A DNA stretch of 64,000 nucleotides from Algoriphagus winogradskyi (GTDB taxonomy: Bacteria; Bacteroidota; Bacteroidia; Cytophagales; Cyclobacteriaceae): contig NZ_FXUA01000007.1 of the NCBI RefSeq assembly GCF_900182815.1, forward strand, positions 186,001-250,000, written 5' to 3'. The notes beneath the pieces are model-generated. The model was not told the origin of the DNA. It worked only from the letters and a program-made list of their open reading frames with translations, and ran no database searches. Of the stretch, positions 6,811-46,601 are shown piece after piece. The translations under genes and the position numbers were made by a program. Numbering within the stretch: the first letter of the stretch is position 1; each line of letters opens with the position of its first letter.

Positions 6811-9579
6811 ATGAAAAACAAATTACTAAGAGCGATTACCTTGATCGCGGCTTTTTGCCTGAGCCATCAGATGCTAGCTCAGGGTGTTTTAAGAGGTAGG
6901 GTTATCGATGCACAGAACCTATCTATGCCAGGTGCAAATGTTATTTTGAAGGGCACTACAATCGGTACTATTACCAATCAAACTGGAGATTTTTCTATTG
7001 TTGATCTTCCGGCTGGAACTTATGAAGTAGAAGTTTCATACTTGGGCTATGGGTCTTTACTCCATGATACGGAGGTAGAAAATGGTCAAACCACTATTCT
7101 GAACTTCAAATTGGATGAAACTACGATAGAAAGCCTGGAATTTGTGGTGATGGGAGATCGGCTTAAAGGGCAAGCTAAAGCGCTCAATCAACAGAAGAAC
7201 AATGCGAATATCACCAATGTGGTATCCTCTGATCAAATTGGTCGGTTTCCTGATGCCAATATTGGAGATGCACTGAAAAGAATTCCTGGTATCACCATGC
7301 AAAATGATCAGGGTGAAGCAAGGAATATCATTATCCGAGGTCTTGCGCCTCAGCTTAATTCTGTGACTTTGAACGGGGAAAGATTGCCATCTGCAGAAGG
7401 GGATAACAGAAATGTACAAATGGATTTGATTCCATCAGACATGATCCAGACCATTGAAGTGAACAAAGCTGTCTTACCAAGTATGGATGCTGATGCAATT
7501 GGAGGCTCAGTTAACTTAGTAACCCGACAAGCTCCAAATTCCCTGCGTATATCTGGAACTGCAGCATCGGGCGTCAATTTACTTTCTAATAAACCAATCT
7601 GGACTGGAGGTTTGATTATTGGCAACAGATTCTTTAATGATAAACTGGGAGCCATTTTTTCAGGTTCTTACAATAATCATCGATTTGGCTCAGACAATAT
7701 CGAGGCAGTATGGAAAGAGTACGATAATGGGGTCGCCTTGGAAGAATTTGATATTAGAGAGTATAGAGTGCAGCGTGTGCGTAGATCTGCTTCAGTTGCT
7801 TTCGATTATGAGATCAATGACAATCATACACTTTTCCTTTCCGGAATGTATAATCACCGGGATGACTGGGAAAATAGATTCAGAATGAGAGTTAGCCAGT
7901 TGGATGATTCATTTGATGAGGGTGATTTTACTGAGGTCAGTTCCGGGAATTACCTCACGAAAGGCCGCGTAGAATACGAGACCAAAGGTGGTTTGGATAG
8001 CGATAGAAATAAAGCGGCTAGACTGGAAGATCAGCGAGTATATAACACGACACTGGGCGGTAGTCATATATTCAACAAACTGAAAATGGATTGGTCAGCA
8101 ACTTATGCGAAGGCATCCGAAGAAAGACCATTTGAGCGCTATACTTCCTATAGATCTTCAGGGCAAGATGTCACTGTAGATGTATCTAACCCGGAGAAAC
8201 CGTACGCATACCTAACTGATCCAGCTGATAATCTTAGGATTGGGTTTAATGGGCTCTCAGAGCAATATGGGTATACATCTGACCGCGACTTGAATGCAAA
8301 ATTGGATTTCAAACTTCCTTATAGTCCTAAGGGTATCCTTCAATTTGGTTTGAGGTACAGAGGAAAAAATAAGGAGCGGGAAAACAACTTCTACGAATAC
8401 GAACCTTTGGATGAGGAAGCTTTCGGAGAAACAATAGCAGACGTTCCAAATGATAATTACTCAGATCCTAATTTCCTAGTAGGTTCACAATACCAAGTAG
8501 GCACATTTATGACGCCGGAGTATTTGGGTGGTTTGGATTTCAAAAACTCGGGTTTATTTGAAGAAAGTGATATTCCGGAAGAGTATGCGCCAGGAAATTA
8601 CAATGCCAAGGAAACCATTACAGGAGGATATGTGATGGCAGATCATCAGTTTTCAGAAAAATTCTCAGCGATAGCTGGTGTGCGACTAGAGCATACAGCA
8701 ATTGACTACGTCGGGAATATTTTTGATATAGATAACGAAGAGATTTCATCTGCAGAAGGCGAGCAAAGCTACACCAACTTTATGCCTGGAGTACATTTGA
8801 AATACAATATGAATTCAAACTCAGTCCTAAGATTTGCTTGGACAAATACCATTGCAAGGCCAAATTATTTTGACTTGGTTCCTTATGCTGAGTTTAGTCC
8901 TGAAGATGAGGAGCTTGCTCGTGGCAACCCAAATTTGAGACCAGCAACTGCAATGAATTTTGATTTGATGGGGGAGCAGTACTTTGATAACGTAGGGTTA
9001 TTTTCATTGGGCGGGTTTTATAAGGATGTTGATGATTTCGTCTACACGATCACCTCTCAAGGATATAGTGATCCACAGTTTGGTTCCGATCTTCAATATT
9101 CCCGCCCCGAAAATGGGGGCACTGCAAAAATTTATGGACTGGAAGCTTCTATACAGCGTCAGTTATGGAAAGGATTCGGAATTTACCTAAACTATACTTA
9201 CACCAAGTCATCTACAACTGGTATTGAAGGCAGAGACAATGATGATATTGAATTACCAGGTACAGCGGACAACATGTTCAACGCTTCTTTATCTTTTGAG
9301 AACAGAAAGTTTGTAGCACGTGTATCTTTAAACTTTGCTTCTGATTATTTGGATGAGTTGGGCGGAGAAGCTTTCGAAGATCGTTACTATGACCAGCAGA
9401 CATTTTTGGATGTAAATGCCTCCTATGCTATCACGCCAAAGTGGAGGGTGTTTTTCGAAGGAAATAACTTGACTAATCAGCCATTGAGATATTATCAGGG
9501 AATCAAATCGAGAACAATGCAGGCAGAATATTACAATGCGCGATTGAACTTTGGTTTGAAATTCGATTTGTTCGAATAG
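6811..9579 (+). CDS. TonB-dependent outer membrane receptor linked to phytase
   Basis: 922 residues. A signal peptide (residues 1-24, ending MLAQ) is followed by a carboxypeptidase-regulatory-like beta-sandwich (about 25-105, GRVIDAQNLSMPGANV). The plug domain (about 125-230) contains SSDQIGRFPDANIGDALKRIPG and IIIRGLAPQLNSVTLNGERLPS. A 22-strand-type barrel runs to the C-terminal aromatic end NFGLKFDLFE. The plug signature is that of the Xanthomonas/Caulobacter TonB receptor group (TIGR01782-like) rather than SusC, and no SusD partner follows. It imports a ligand across the outer membrane using TonB energy; the neighbouring phytase suggests phytate, inositol phosphates or a released metal-phosphate. 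Confidence 0.9.
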   Translation: MKNKLLRAITLIAAFCLSHQMLAQGVLRGRVIDAQNLSMPGANVILKGTTIGTITNQTGDFSIVDLPAGTYEVEVSYLGYGSLLHDTEVENGQTTILNFKLDETTIESLEFVVMGDRLKGQAKALNQQKNNANITNVVSSDQIGRFPDANIGDALKRIPGITMQNDQGEARNIIIRGLAPQLNSVTLNGERLPSAEGDNRNVQMDLIPSDMIQTIEVNKAVLPSMDADAIGGSVNLVTRQAPNSLRISGTAASGVNLLSNKPIWTGGLIIGNRFFNDKLGAIFSGSYNNHRFGSDNIEAVWKEYDNGVALEEFDIREYRVQRVRRSASVAFDYEINDNHTLFLSGMYNHRDDWENRFRMRVSQLDDSFDEGDFTEVSSGNYLTKGRVEYETKGGLDSDRNKAARLEDQRVYNTTLGGSHIFNKLKMDWSATYAKASEERPFERYTSYRSSGQDVTVDVSNPEKPYAYLTDPADNLRIGFNGLSEQYGYTSDRDLNAKLDFKLPYSPKGILQFGLRYRGKNKERENNFYEYEPLDEEAFGETIADVPNDNYSDPNFLVGSQYQVGTFMTPEYLGGLDFKNSGLFEESDIPEEYAPGNYNAKETITGGYVMADHQFSEKFSAIAGVRLEHTAIDYVGNIFDIDNEEISSAEGEQSYTNFMPGVHLKYNMNSNSVLRFAWTNTIARPNYFDLVPYAEFSPEDEELARGNPNLRPATAMNFDLMGEQYFDNVGLFSLGGFYKDVDDFVYTITSQGYSDPQFGSDLQYSRPENGGTAKIYGLEASIQRQLWKGFGIYLNYTYTKSSTTGIEGRDNDDIELPGTADNMFNASLSFENRKFVARVSLNFASDYLDELGGEAFEDRYYDQQTFLDVNASYAITPKWRVFFEGNNLTNQPLRYYQGIKSRTMQAEYYNARLNFGLKFDLFE

Positions 9580-14651: not shown

Positions 14652-14738
14652 AAAAGAAGCGGCATCGCACCGCTCAACCACCTACCCTTGCTTCCTTCCG
14701 GACCTGGGGGATTCAGCAGGAGCTGGTCGTGCCGCCGG
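14652..14738 (-). ncRNA. ffs: Signal recognition particle RNA, small bacterial (4.5S-like) type
   Basis: The minus strand carries the SRP domain IV core CAGGTCCGGAAGGAAGCA, the near-invariant Ffh-binding loop region. Outer arms GCGGCA (14735-14730) and TGCCGC (14664-14659) can pair to close the hairpin, giving an RNA of roughly 80-85 nt. A U-run (14650-14655) ends transcription. It forms the SRP with Ffh for co-translational membrane targeting. The 5' end was set from the promoter just upstream; the exact ends are approximate. Confidence 0.9.
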
Positions 14739-14740
14739 TG

Positions 14741-14770
14741 CAAAAGTAAGGAGAATATTAATCTTTACAA
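14741..14770 (-). promoter_or_regulatory. Promoter of the SRP RNA gene
   Basis: Minus-strand reading: TTG at 14770-14768, 19 bases, then TACTTTTG at 14748-14741. This matches the Bacteroidota housekeeping consensus (TTG, about 19, TAnnTTTG) and places the start at about 14735, the predicted 5' end of the RNA. Confidence 0.8.
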
Positions 14771-16092: not shown

Positions 16093-17505
16093 ATGACTCA
16101 TATTAAACTACCTATTTTAACTACTTACAGAAAGCGCCTAGCGGACACAATCACCCCTGTGAGTATTTATCTGCAGATTCGGGATCGTTTTGCAAATCCT
16201 ATTCTGCTCGAGAGTTCAGATTATCATGGTCAGGAAAATAGTTATTCTTATATCTGTTTTAACCCTTTGGCAACTTTCAGTTTCAATGCTGGAGAAGTGA
16301 AAGAAACCTTACCATTGGGGCATTCTGTATCCTATAAAGTGAGTTCGGATCAGAAACTGATGGAGAGCCTTAGAGCTTTTGGGAACAAGTTTGATACGGG
16401 GCAGGATAATTTTAAATTTAGCTCGAATGGACTTTTTGGATACATCCAATACGATTCAGTAGCCTATTTCGAAGATATCAATCTGCAGAATACAAAGGCA
16501 TCTGAGGTGCCGATGATGCAATATTCAGTTTATCAGAATATCATCGTGGTAGATCATTATAAAAATGAGCTTCACTTATTAGAGCATAGAGTGGCAGGTG
16601 CGGAGAATCCGGAATTAACGGATGAGATCGAAAGGTTGCTTTCAAACAAAAATATTCCAAGCTACTCGTTTAAGAGAGTAGGAGAAGAAACCTCAAACTA
16701 CACTGATGAGGAGTTCTTAAAGATTTTGAACCAAGGAAGAGAGCATTGCTTTAAAGGCGATGTGTTCCAGATTGTACTTTCCAGAAGGTTTTCCACTGCC
16801 TTCAAAGGTGACGAATTCAATGTATATCGTGCCCTTAGATCTGTCAATCCTTCACCTTATTTATTTTATTTTGATTACGGTTCTTTCAAGGTTTTTGGAA
16901 GTTCTCCAGAAGCTCAAATCGTAGTGAAAGATAAACGGGCTACCATTTATCCAATAGCGGGTACATTCCGTCGTACAGGAAATGATCAGGAAGATGCAGT
17001 TTTGGCCCGCAAACTTTATGATGATCCAAAAGAGAATTCAGAACATGTGATGCTTGTGGATTTGGCGAGAAATGACCTCAGTAGATCCTCTGAGAAAGTT
17101 ACCGTGGATGTCTTTAAAGAGATTCAATACTATTCACATGTGATTCACTTAGTATCTAAAGTGACGGGAGAATTACCAGAAGGAACAAATCCACTTCAGT
17201 TGGTAGCTGATACCTTTCCTGCAGGTACACTTTCTGGAGCTCCTAAATATAGAGCGATGGAGCTGATAGACGAGTTGGAGAATGTTTCTAGAACGTTCTA
17301 TGGTGGGGCGATTGGCTACTTAGGGTTCAATGGTGACTTCAATCACGCGATTTTGATCCGATCCTTTGTCTCCGAAAACAATCAGCTCAGATTCCAGGCT
17401 GGTGCGGGTGTAGTCGCCAAATCAACTATCCCATCTGAATTGCAAGAAGTGGCAAATAAACTGGAAGCGCTGCGAGTGGCTTTAAGAGCGGCGGAAGGAA
17501 TTTAA
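16093..17505 (+). CDS. trpE: Anthranilate synthase component I
   Basis: 470 residues. It converts chorismate and ammonia (from TrpG) to anthranilate, the first committed step of tryptophan synthesis. The chorismate-binding domain fills the C-terminal half: IYPIAGTFRRTG, ENSEHVMLVDLARNDL, FPAGTLSGAPKYRAMELIDELE and RTFYGGAIGYLGF, with RFQAGAGVVAKSTIPSELQEV near the end. The N-terminal half carries the regulatory fold. LLESSDYHGQENSYSYI includes the Leu-Leu-Glu-Ser motif that binds feedback tryptophan, so the enzyme is probably inhibited by Trp. It is the first structural gene after the attenuator, and its stop touches the octamer array. Confidence 0.95.
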   Translation: MTHIKLPILTTYRKRLADTITPVSIYLQIRDRFANPILLESSDYHGQENSYSYICFNPLATFSFNAGEVKETLPLGHSVSYKVSSDQKLMESLRAFGNKFDTGQDNFKFSSNGLFGYIQYDSVAYFEDINLQNTKASEVPMMQYSVYQNIIVVDHYKNELHLLEHRVAGAENPELTDEIERLLSNKNIPSYSFKRVGEETSNYTDEEFLKILNQGREHCFKGDVFQIVLSRRFSTAFKGDEFNVYRALRSVNPSPYLFYFDYGSFKVFGSSPEAQIVVKDKRATIYPIAGTFRRTGNDQEDAVLARKLYDDPKENSEHVMLVDLARNDLSRSSEKVTVDVFKEIQYYSHVIHLVSKVTGELPEGTNPLQLVADTFPAGTLSGAPKYRAMELIDELENVSRTFYGGAIGYLGFNGDFNHAILIRSFVSENNQLRFQAGAGVVAKSTIPSELQEVANKLEALRVALRAAEGI

Positions 17506-17536
17506 TTGGAAAATTGCAAGATTTTAAAATTGAAAA
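17505..17536 (+). repeat. Degenerate octamer array, left arm
   Basis: Four 8-mers in tandem, ATTGGAAA, ATTGCAAG, ATTTTAAA and ATTGAAAA, starting at the last base of the trpE stop codon and ending three bases before the four-helix-bundle start. They match the reverse complement of the array at 17941-17972 (consensus ATTGRAAR). Confidence 0.8.
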
Positions 17537-17539
17537 ATT

Positions 17540-17926
17540 ATGGCAAAATACGAGCGATTTGAAGATTTACCAGTTTGGCAGCATGCTATCAGAATAGGTG
17601 TGGGAATATATCAATTAGTGGAATCTGAAAAATTAGCTAAAGACTATCGTGCCAAAGATCAATTAATAGGATCTGCAATTTCGATTTCAAATAATATAGC
17701 AGAGGGCTTTGAATATAATAGGAATCGTCAGTTTATCCGATACTTAGAAATATCCAAGGGATCTGCTGGTGAGCTTCGAAGCCAGCTTTTCTTGCTTCTT
17801 TCAGTTGGCAAAATAGATAAAGGAGCTTACCAAGAATACTACTTAGACTTAGTTGAGCTATCCAGTGAATTAAAAGGTTTAATCAAATACCTAAATGAAT
17901 TTGAAGATAAAAAAAAGAAAAGTTGA
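17540..17926 (+). CDS. Four-helix-bundle protein (S23 / 23S intervening-sequence type) inserted in the trp operon
   Basis: 128 residues, all alpha-helical: YERFEDLPVWQHAIRIGVGIYQL, DQLIGSAISISNNIAEGFEYN, FIRYLEISKGSAGELRSQLFLLL and a last helix near 100-125. This is the pattern of the IVS/S23 four-helix-bundle family (PF05635, TIGR02436), known from insertions in 23S rRNA genes and related in fold to the Avd protein of diversity-generating retroelements. It forms pentameric bundles that bind nucleic acid; its cellular role is unknown. It has no expected role in tryptophan synthesis. Inverted octamer arrays flank it exactly between trpE and trpG, which suggests a small mobile or domesticated cassette. 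Confidence 0.88.
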   Translation: MAKYERFEDLPVWQHAIRIGVGIYQLVESEKLAKDYRAKDQLIGSAISISNNIAEGFEYNRNRQFIRYLEISKGSAGELRSQLFLLLSVGKIDKGAYQEYYLDLVELSSELKGLIKYLNEFEDKKKKS

Positions 17927-17940
17927 TGACTCTGGTGAAT

Positions 17941-17972
17941 CTTCCAATTTTTCAATCTTCCAATCTTTCAAT
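17941..17972 (+). repeat. Degenerate octamer array, right arm (inverted)
   Basis: CTTCCAAT, TTTTCAAT, CTTCCAAT and CTTTCAAT in tandem, ending eight bases before the trpG start. Reverse-complemented, they match the left arm at 17505-17536. Confidence 0.85.
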
Positions 17973-17980
17973 TAATTAAA

Positions 17981-18547
17981 ATGAAAATACTCGTCCTAGA
18001 TAACTACGATTCCTTCACCTACAACTTGGTATATATCGTCCGCCAACTTGGTTATGGGGCAGATATGGATGTGTTCCGAAATGATAAAATCAGCTTGGAG
18101 GATGTCTCTCAATACGATAAAATAATTCTCTCTCCTGGACCTGGAGTACCTGAAGATGCTGGAATAATGCCTGAGCTTTTGAAGAAATATGCTTCCACTA
18201 AATCAATATTGGGAGTTTGTCTTGGGCATCAAGCAATCGGTGAAGCCTTTGGTGGAGATTTAATTAACTTATCAGAAGTTCTTCATGGGGTGGCTTCTAT
18301 TGTAAAAGTGGAAGATGACTTGCTTTTCAAGGGCGTTCCCGATACATTTAGTATTGGTAGGTATCACTCCTGGGTCGTTAATGAAATCACCCTTTCATCA
18401 GACTTGGAAGTGATTGCCCGTACACCCGACAATCAAATCATGGCTTTGAGGCACAAGAAGTATGATGTCCGGGGCGTACAATTTCATCCAGAGAGTATTC
18501 TTACTGAAAACGGAGTGCAGATTCTCAAAAACTGGTTGGAGAATTAA
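17981..18547 (+). CDS. trpG: Anthranilate synthase component II, glutamine amidotransferase
   Basis: 188 residues, a class I (triad) glutamine amidotransferase. DNYDSFTYNLVY opens the domain and LSPGPGVPEDAG forms the oxyanion region. The nucleophile Cys is in GVCLGHQAIGEAFGG near residue 80, and the His-Glu pair is in GVQFHPES near residue 170. It hydrolyses glutamine and channels ammonia to TrpE. The same subunit can also serve para-aminobenzoate synthase in some bacteria, but the operon context points to tryptophan. It is separated from trpE by the four-helix-bundle cassette, which is unusual because the two subunits are normally adjacent. Confidence 0.95.
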   Translation: MKILVLDNYDSFTYNLVYIVRQLGYGADMDVFRNDKISLEDVSQYDKIILSPGPGVPEDAGIMPELLKKYASTKSILGVCLGHQAIGEAFGGDLINLSEVLHGVASIVKVEDDLLFKGVPDTFSIGRYHSWVVNEITLSSDLEVIARTPDNQIMALRHKKYDVRGVQFHPESILTENGVQILKNWLEN

Positions 18548-46530: not shown

Positions 46531-46601
46531 AGGTCGAGAGCGGATTCGAACCGCTGTAGAAGGTTTTGCAGACCTCTGCCTAGCCACTCGGCCACTCGAC
46601 C
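46531..46601 (-). tRNA. tRNA-Cys (anticodon GCA)
   Basis: Minus strand: GGTCGAG pairs with CTCGACC in the acceptor stem. The anticodon loop contains CTGCAAA with GCA, the T-arm GCGGTTCGAATCCGC is perfect, and the D-arm is normal. The 71-nt gene does not encode its 3' CCA, so it depends on a CCA-adding enzyme such as the cca gene at 1.5 kb. Confidence 0.95.

Follow-up and report, generated by a model that had tools for sequence, protein, structure and literature searches.

The gap between trpE and trpG in the Algoriphagus winogradskyi window analysed here (the whole stretch of 64,000 nucleotides) was filled by an ORF for a small four-helix-bundle (4HB) protein and by inverted arrays of period 8. 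On balance, positions 17505–17973 appear to form one cassette of the intervening sequence (IVS)-like kind, consisting of the 4HB gene and inverted-array ends and exchanged as ORF plus arrays. 4HB genes were multi-copy, and most of the copies tested carried matched inverted arrays whose units varied between copies. At the trpE-trpG junction, ORF and array types appeared, vanished, nested and differed jointly between close relatives. The structure is real and recurrent and represents a variant of the S23/IVS elements, perhaps as much as can so far be seen of a new class of cassettes.

Structure of the trpE-trpG junction

The features of the junction are listed in Table 1. The stop codon of trpE (TAA, 17503–17505) contributed its final base to the left array, which reads ATTGGAAA ATTGCAAG ATTTTAAA ATTGAAAA ATT, with one of the four units degenerate. 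The right array reads AATCTTCC AATTTTTC AATCTTCC AATCTTTC AATT and was separated by seven bases from the trpG ATG at 17981. In an inverted-repeat search, 17502–17539 and 17938–17975 were returned as one inverted pair of 38 nt with 82% complementarity, and the only TRF rows with at least four copies in the window were the period-8 arrays at 17504–17539 and 17938–17972. The bracketing of a 4HB ORF by inverted octamer arrays between the two trp genes, as given in the preliminary description of this DNA, was thereby confirmed. The inverted-arm score of the trp copy was 20.5, where 14 or more was the threshold used.

Table 1. Features at the trpE-trpG junction (positions within the window)
Feature	Position	Strand	Evidence
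trpE, host gene	16093..17505	+	ORF list; TrpE-like by NCBIfam
Left array, putative cassette left end; four ATTGRAAR-kind octamers + ATT	17505..17539	+	Sequence, inverted-repeat search, TRF
S23/IVP four-helix-bundle (4HB) ORF, 128 aa	17540..17926	+	PF05635, TIGR02436, AlphaFold2, fold matches 2gsc, 2rld, 4dwl
Right array, putative cassette right end; left-array octamer inverted	17938..17973	-	Sequence, inverted-repeat search, TRF
trpG, host gene	17981..18547	+	ORF list; TrpG-like by NCBIfam

The only ORF within the cassette was the PF05635 ORF, the other Pfam line being a sub-threshold SLATT_6, and neither a recognisable transposase nor a RAYT (HUH tyrosine transposase) was found in it. PADLOC gave no match, PHROGs gave a single match of unknown function (E 0.001), and promoter and terminator scans were at chance level only. 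No rRNA was found by Rfam within the window or in 40 other 4HB loci. Two other RNAs reached the gathering score in the window, a Bacteroidales small SRP RNA (14652–14742, minus strand) and a tRNA (46531–46601, minus strand), and nothing else did.

The same junction in related genomes

The 30 junctions read all came from one genus and were drawn from the 57 genomes that had a TrpG match. Eight carried type A (ATTGAAAA units), six carried type B (GTTGTAAA-like units and a different ORF subfamily), three retained array relics without an ORF and 13 were empty. The distance from the trpE stop to the trpG start was 2–17 bp in twelve of the empty junctions and 45 bp in the remaining one. The preliminary description had proposed a precise insertion at the junction and had pointed to empty sites in relatives as a check. 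Empty sites were found. A precise insertion is plausible, but no target-site duplication was noticed on comparing filled with empty junctions by reading.

On a tree of TrpE and TrpG, in which 11 of 27 inner branches were starred, the states A, B and none required at least 10 changes, and the filled and unfilled states required 7. The sister pairs G016/G023 and G019/G021, both well supported, differed in A/B type. At this junction, ORF type and array type changed together. In G035 (L037), a type-B cassette with both of its arrays was followed by a 70-nt type-A remnant and then by a type-A right array; the remnant translated to the type-A C-terminus with a score of 47, compared to 19–23 for type B, and none of 500 shuffles was as good. 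In G021 (L024), a type-A right array persisted outside a type-B cassette. The ORF was shortened or broken at four of the 14 filled sites (L023, L027, L031 and L034). The earlier suggestion that the ORF belongs to a mobile or domesticated cassette ending in the octamer arrays is partly supported: the joint change of ORF and arrays speaks for the cassette, while transposition as such is putative. The junction in this one genus offers empty, filled, swapped and nested states side by side in nature.

Between G016 and G023, the last 500 columns of trpE were 91–97% identical and the first 600 of trpG 90–100%. Further up in trpE, 500–900 nt before the junction, the identity fell to 77–84%, which makes tracts of homologous recombination close to the site likely. 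In G016 (L029), the left flank of the type-A cassette contained a second inverted pair, GAGACACAGAGGG / GTGTCTCTGTG, with no ORF.

4HB genes and their arms in other genomes

A profile search identified 11 PF05635 ORFs in the window's genome. The family was present in 48 of 58 genomes (the relatives and the window's own), with a maximum of 15 copies, and in 157 of 198 genomes of the phylum, with a maximum of 16. From the own genome and relatives, 117 copies were found, of which 113 were used for listing of units and 112 for scoring of arms after those with short flanks were dropped; the relatives' copies were taken from the strongest PF05635 matches, such that weak members were under-sampled. 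Inverted, mutually matching arms with a score of at least 14 were present at 76 of the 112 copies. Of the 257 ordinary ORFs in 20 control stretches, only two reached this score, and 3.9% of 3000 mismatched left/right arm pairs did, placing the inverted arrangement far beyond chance. The inverted score exceeded the direct score in 93 copies and was below it in 17. Within the window's genome, four of the 11 copies reached a score of 14 and six reached 12, with one copy having a right flank of only 121 nt; at L008 the arrays were direct, not inverted.

Inverted arms were also found at 11 of 29 copies in the phylum sample, at 37 of 80 ORF hits in named genomes (mismatched pairs, 6.6%) and at 15 of 22 copies in viral contigs (mismatched pairs, 2.7%). 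In the wider set, after de-duplication had taken out three repeated viral copies and some further ones, 136 of 241 distinct copies reached 14. The left arm in this set had more G than C in 117 cases and less in 11, with eight ties, which shows that the arrays have an orientation with respect to the ORF. The unit period was 7 in 81 and 8 in 20 of the 116 testable arms.

The units themselves varied between copies, examples being GAAGACC, GTACNAA, AAGTATC, CAGTNNG, ATTTGAA and GGGATTA, and arms matched their own partner far better than the arms of other copies. The idea that ATTGRAAR marks every 4HB copy was therefore rejected. The preliminary description had proposed looking for arrays of this unit at other 4HB ORFs. 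Inverted arrays did bracket others, in the same and in other genomes, but with 7- or 8-nt units of their own; the arrays of L008 were the direct ones. The two outcomes that would have spoken against a cassette, namely all relatives being filled with unrelated flanks or other copies lacking arrays, did not occur.

Grouping of the copies by location gave 14 sites common to at least two copies and 32 single ones. Other sites are presumably fadB/fadA-, lpd-, sufB/sufC- and FtsX-like, as recognised from translated starts. On a tree of 117 4HB proteins, which rested on few columns and had many weak forks, the 14 sites needed 15 changes compared to a minimum of 13, suggesting that most copies were inherited or exchanged in place. 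Since the sites were mostly of one clade, ectopic movement would be rare or old; and since the ORFs within a site were mostly of one clade, much of the turnover could be due to exchange between equivalent sites, for which ordinary homologous recombination is one possible route.

For the close relatives, with one representative for each of 31 sites, arm similarity correlated with protein distance at rho −0.27 (permutation p at most 0.01), and within this group the array units track the protein clade. In the wider phylum set, for which each cluster was represented by one copy, the link was not significant (rho 0.06, p up to 0.28); here clusters united any two copies with one common flank and were over-merged. 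In that wider set, 62 pairs that were more than 60% identical at different sites shared units, with a mean cosine of 0.25 vs about 0.03.

The 4HB protein

The 4HB ORF matched PF05635 with an E value of 1.4e-26 and 93.2 bits (cut-off 33.8) and TIGR02436 with 90.9 (cut-off 24). An AlphaFold2 monomer model of the protein had a mean pLDDT of 96.6. Foldseek matched the model to the S23-family structures 2gsc (TM 0.82/0.89) and 2rld (TM 0.75/0.88), and also to Avd (4dwl, TM 0.74/0.87, E 0.015) and the ribonucleoprotein of a diversity-generating retroelement (DGR; 8ub7/8ube). The kinship of PF05635 with Avd has been noted before (PMC10053308, in part), and the Xanthomonas S23 protein is reported to form a homopentameric ring (PMC4990558, in part). 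Going by structure dates, S23/IVP structures have been solved since 2006–2007. To our knowledge, no function is known for S23/IVP proteins.

The ORF was under purifying selection, with a median dN/dS of 0.07–0.39 at eight sites. At trp, the ORF of the window's genome differed from that of G017 by five synonymous changes and one nonsynonymous change. The 4HB protein probably recognises the arrays. The array unit next to each gene thereby becomes a specific candidate for the ligand of these proteins, and as this unit differs between genes it can easily be swapped in a binding test. Related background includes the cyanobacterial STRR heptamers, heptamers in a tRNA-Leu intron and TRAP-type rings.

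In the mechanism that we propose, the cassette would be largely selfish and site-faithful, akin to the S23-bearing 23S rRNA intervening sequences but placed at operon junctions. It would spread mostly by exchange between equivalent sites and occasionally to new sites. The ring-forming 4HB protein would recognise its own array unit, our guess being one unit per 4HB subunit, and the arrays would serve both as cassette ends and as protein recognition sites. Decay of the cassette would leave arrays without an ORF.

Arrays without a 4HB ORF

The exact 16-mer doublet ATTGRAARATTGRAAR occurred 29 times in the genome and the reversed pattern did not occur; of 25 genomes belonging to the genus, 23 had the doublet. 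Arrays of ATTGRAAR were found at 18 loci in the window's genome (G000), of which only the trp locus had a 4HB ORF. Among closely spaced array pairs of G016 and G028, six faced inward and none outward, as judged by eye. The six inverted ATTG pairs fetched from these two genomes (L364–L369) were intergenic, and no 4HB remnant was found between their arms. The neighbours of L364 and L366 resembled those of S03 and S10, which are 4HB cassette sites in other genomes; as the permease genes beside L364 and L366 are paralogous, the site match is approximate.

Thirty solo arrays were obtained from 38 rows, six being dropped because they lay inside ORF calls and two for want of an upstream neighbour; one of the 30 was the trp right array itself. 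When placed in right-end orientation, the boundary of the following gene was at a median of 24.5 nt and that of the preceding gene at 169 nt. The following gene was the nearer in 29 of 30, or in 28 of 30 without the distance for L305, which was corrected manually (329 changed to 8) to allow for a shorter ORF with its start at that point. The solo arrays look like leftover cassette ends. Counts of dispersed ATTG arrays across 25 genomes showed no significant difference between type A and empty/relic junctions (p 0.052) or between type A and type B (p 0.34). The type-B unit pattern was scattered in a similar way to the ATTG arrays.

Two further observations were made on such arrays. The palindromic word ACTTGTCCGCCGTGGCGG or its complement recurred in or beside ATTG arrays at L027, L308, L312, L323 and L366, as would be expected if these arrays were targets for another small element. 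In the window's genome, adjacent inverted GTTAA-type arrays without an ORF were located immediately 5' of a gene start (L013, approximately 8280–8352).

Other bracketed ORFs

Short-unit repeats such as ACCGCAGAGGCGCAGAGAACGCAGAG were present on both sides of GxxExxY (PF13366) ORFs in the window's genome (L141–L144) and in relatives (L335–L363). After four of 32 copies were dropped at contig edges, inverted arms of at least 14 were found at 14 of 28 copies, compared to 4.8% of mismatched pairs. The direct scores were equally high, with means of 14.9 for inverted and 15.1 for direct; inversion is therefore not specific for GxxExxY, and the proposal that these ORFs have the same architecture as the 4HB copies was rejected.

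The GIY-YIG ORFs L148–L151 of the window's genome were found either immediately behind a tRNA gene or flanked by partial duplications of the 3' portion of that gene and its terminator-like hairpin.

Alternative explanations

Matching arms may instead be required in RNA. The arrays would then pair in the trp mRNA and fold the ORF out, bringing the trpE stop beside the trpG start, or would direct RNase III cutting as in 23S rRNA, and selection for pairing would keep the arms complementary. In the predicted mRNA fold the arms do form the basal stem (z −2.5, with one of 100 shuffles as stable), and the anatomy equals that of the Coxiella 23S IVS, which has about 430 nt, an S23 ORF, complementary ends and excision by RNase III (PMC4990558, in part). 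Furthermore, 197 of 228 copies sit between two genes of their own direction; counted per site, however, this bias was not significant and not clearly above that of ordinary genes (42/62 vs 141/262, p 0.06). A hairpin in the sense RNA predicts an excess of G-U among the arm mismatches. None was seen, with 73 G-U vs 88 A-C, or 99 vs 132 in the wider set, and selection on an RNA stem is thus not favoured as the main cause of arm matching. As some copies have direct arrays and solo arrays cannot pair, we consider an intervening sequence acting at the RNA level to be unlikely.

The arrays could also be short-unit intergenic repeats of the host, having a role of their own or none, with an ordinary, vertically inherited 4HB gene standing among them by chance. 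Arrays lacking a 4HB ORF are indeed common: 17 of the ATTGRAAR loci in G000 are of this kind, leaving 1/18 with a 4HB ORF, and four of the 20 control stretches contained six period-7 arrays between them. Heptamer arrays near start codons are likewise described for Beggiatoaceae and some Bacteroidetes (PMC4679880, in part). We regard this explanation as improbable, given the enrichment of inverted arms at 4HB ORFs (76/112 vs 2/257), the far better match of arms to their own partner than to others' arms and the way in which ORF type changes together with array type at trp.

Also improbable is DNA transposition in trans, with the arrays as ends of a non-autonomous element, the transposase encoded elsewhere and the 4HB gene a passenger: the ORF-less inverted pairs, with six inward and none outward in G016 and G028 by eye, look MITE- or REPIN-type and the GxxExxY ORFs are likewise bracketed by short-unit repeats, but the 4HB ORF is under purifying selection, the array units track the 4HB clade among close relatives, and the ends vary between copies, unlike a family recognised by one transposase.

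Comparison with known systems

The IVS-like cassette resembles the 23S rRNA intervening sequences of Coxiella, Leptospira and others in its small S23 ORF, its complementary terminal repeats, a length of about 430–475 nt and sporadic occurrence at fixed sites (PMC4990558, in part). Unlike those, it lies in the protein-coding trp operon and not inside a 23S rRNA gene, its ends are arrays of a 7–8 nt unit that varies by copy, and there are many copies per genome. Its ORF is also under purifying selection and not decaying, though some trp copies are shortened.

REPINs and RAYTs share with the cassette the dispersed intergenic inverted doublets, singlets as likely remnants and a linked gene family. 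However, the cassette gene encodes a 4HB protein and not an HUH transposase, its units form 7–8 nt arrays and not palindromic REPs, and 4HB genes are multi-copy whereas RAYTs are single-copy (PMC3116915, in part, for REPINs and RAYTs). In contrast to insertion sequences and MITEs, the cassette copies have no common fixed terminal inverted repeats, since their units differ. The 4HB protein shares the fold of the Avd protein of diversity-generating retroelements, but no reverse transcriptase was among the ORFs listed around the cassette.

Runs of 7–8 nt units beside start or stop codons are a feature of intergenic heptamer and octamer arrays, namely the TAACTGA repeats (PMC4679880, in part) and those of Geobacter metallireducens (PMC2700814, in part). 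In the latter, paired octamer/heptamer sites on opposite strands were ascribed to an unidentified regulator. No link to S23 genes was seen in either: PMC4679880 does not contain the terms 'S23', 'four-helix', 'intervening sequence' or 'IVP', and the passages of PMC2700814 located by repeat terms and 'intervening' contain no such link.

The cassette reading could explain these scattered reports of intergenic heptamer/octamer arrays, and could connect the 23S rRNA intervening sequences with far more numerous elements located at operon junctions. In its broadest form, which we put forward only tentatively and hold to be possible more than probable, 4HB genes would be a class of exchangeable or mobile cassettes whose ends are paired inverted 7–8 nt arrays, in place of fixed terminal repeats, rewritten in each lineage while staying matched; the ring would read the array, each subunit taking one unit. 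The GxxExxY nuclease-fold ORFs, which are unrelated, would sit in an architecture of similar type but with different units, and the heptamer/octamer arrays between genes in several phyla would be cassette debris.

In the open-licence PubMed Central literature, no paper was found that connects S23/IVP genes with inverted arrays of short units in operons. A four helix bundle domain is only named in a legend in the available part of PMC10910872. In two strains of Flavobacterium columnare, a gene for a four helix bundle protein located between the guanylate kinase gene and a nadD-like gene was listed under phage elements (PMC5524665, in part).
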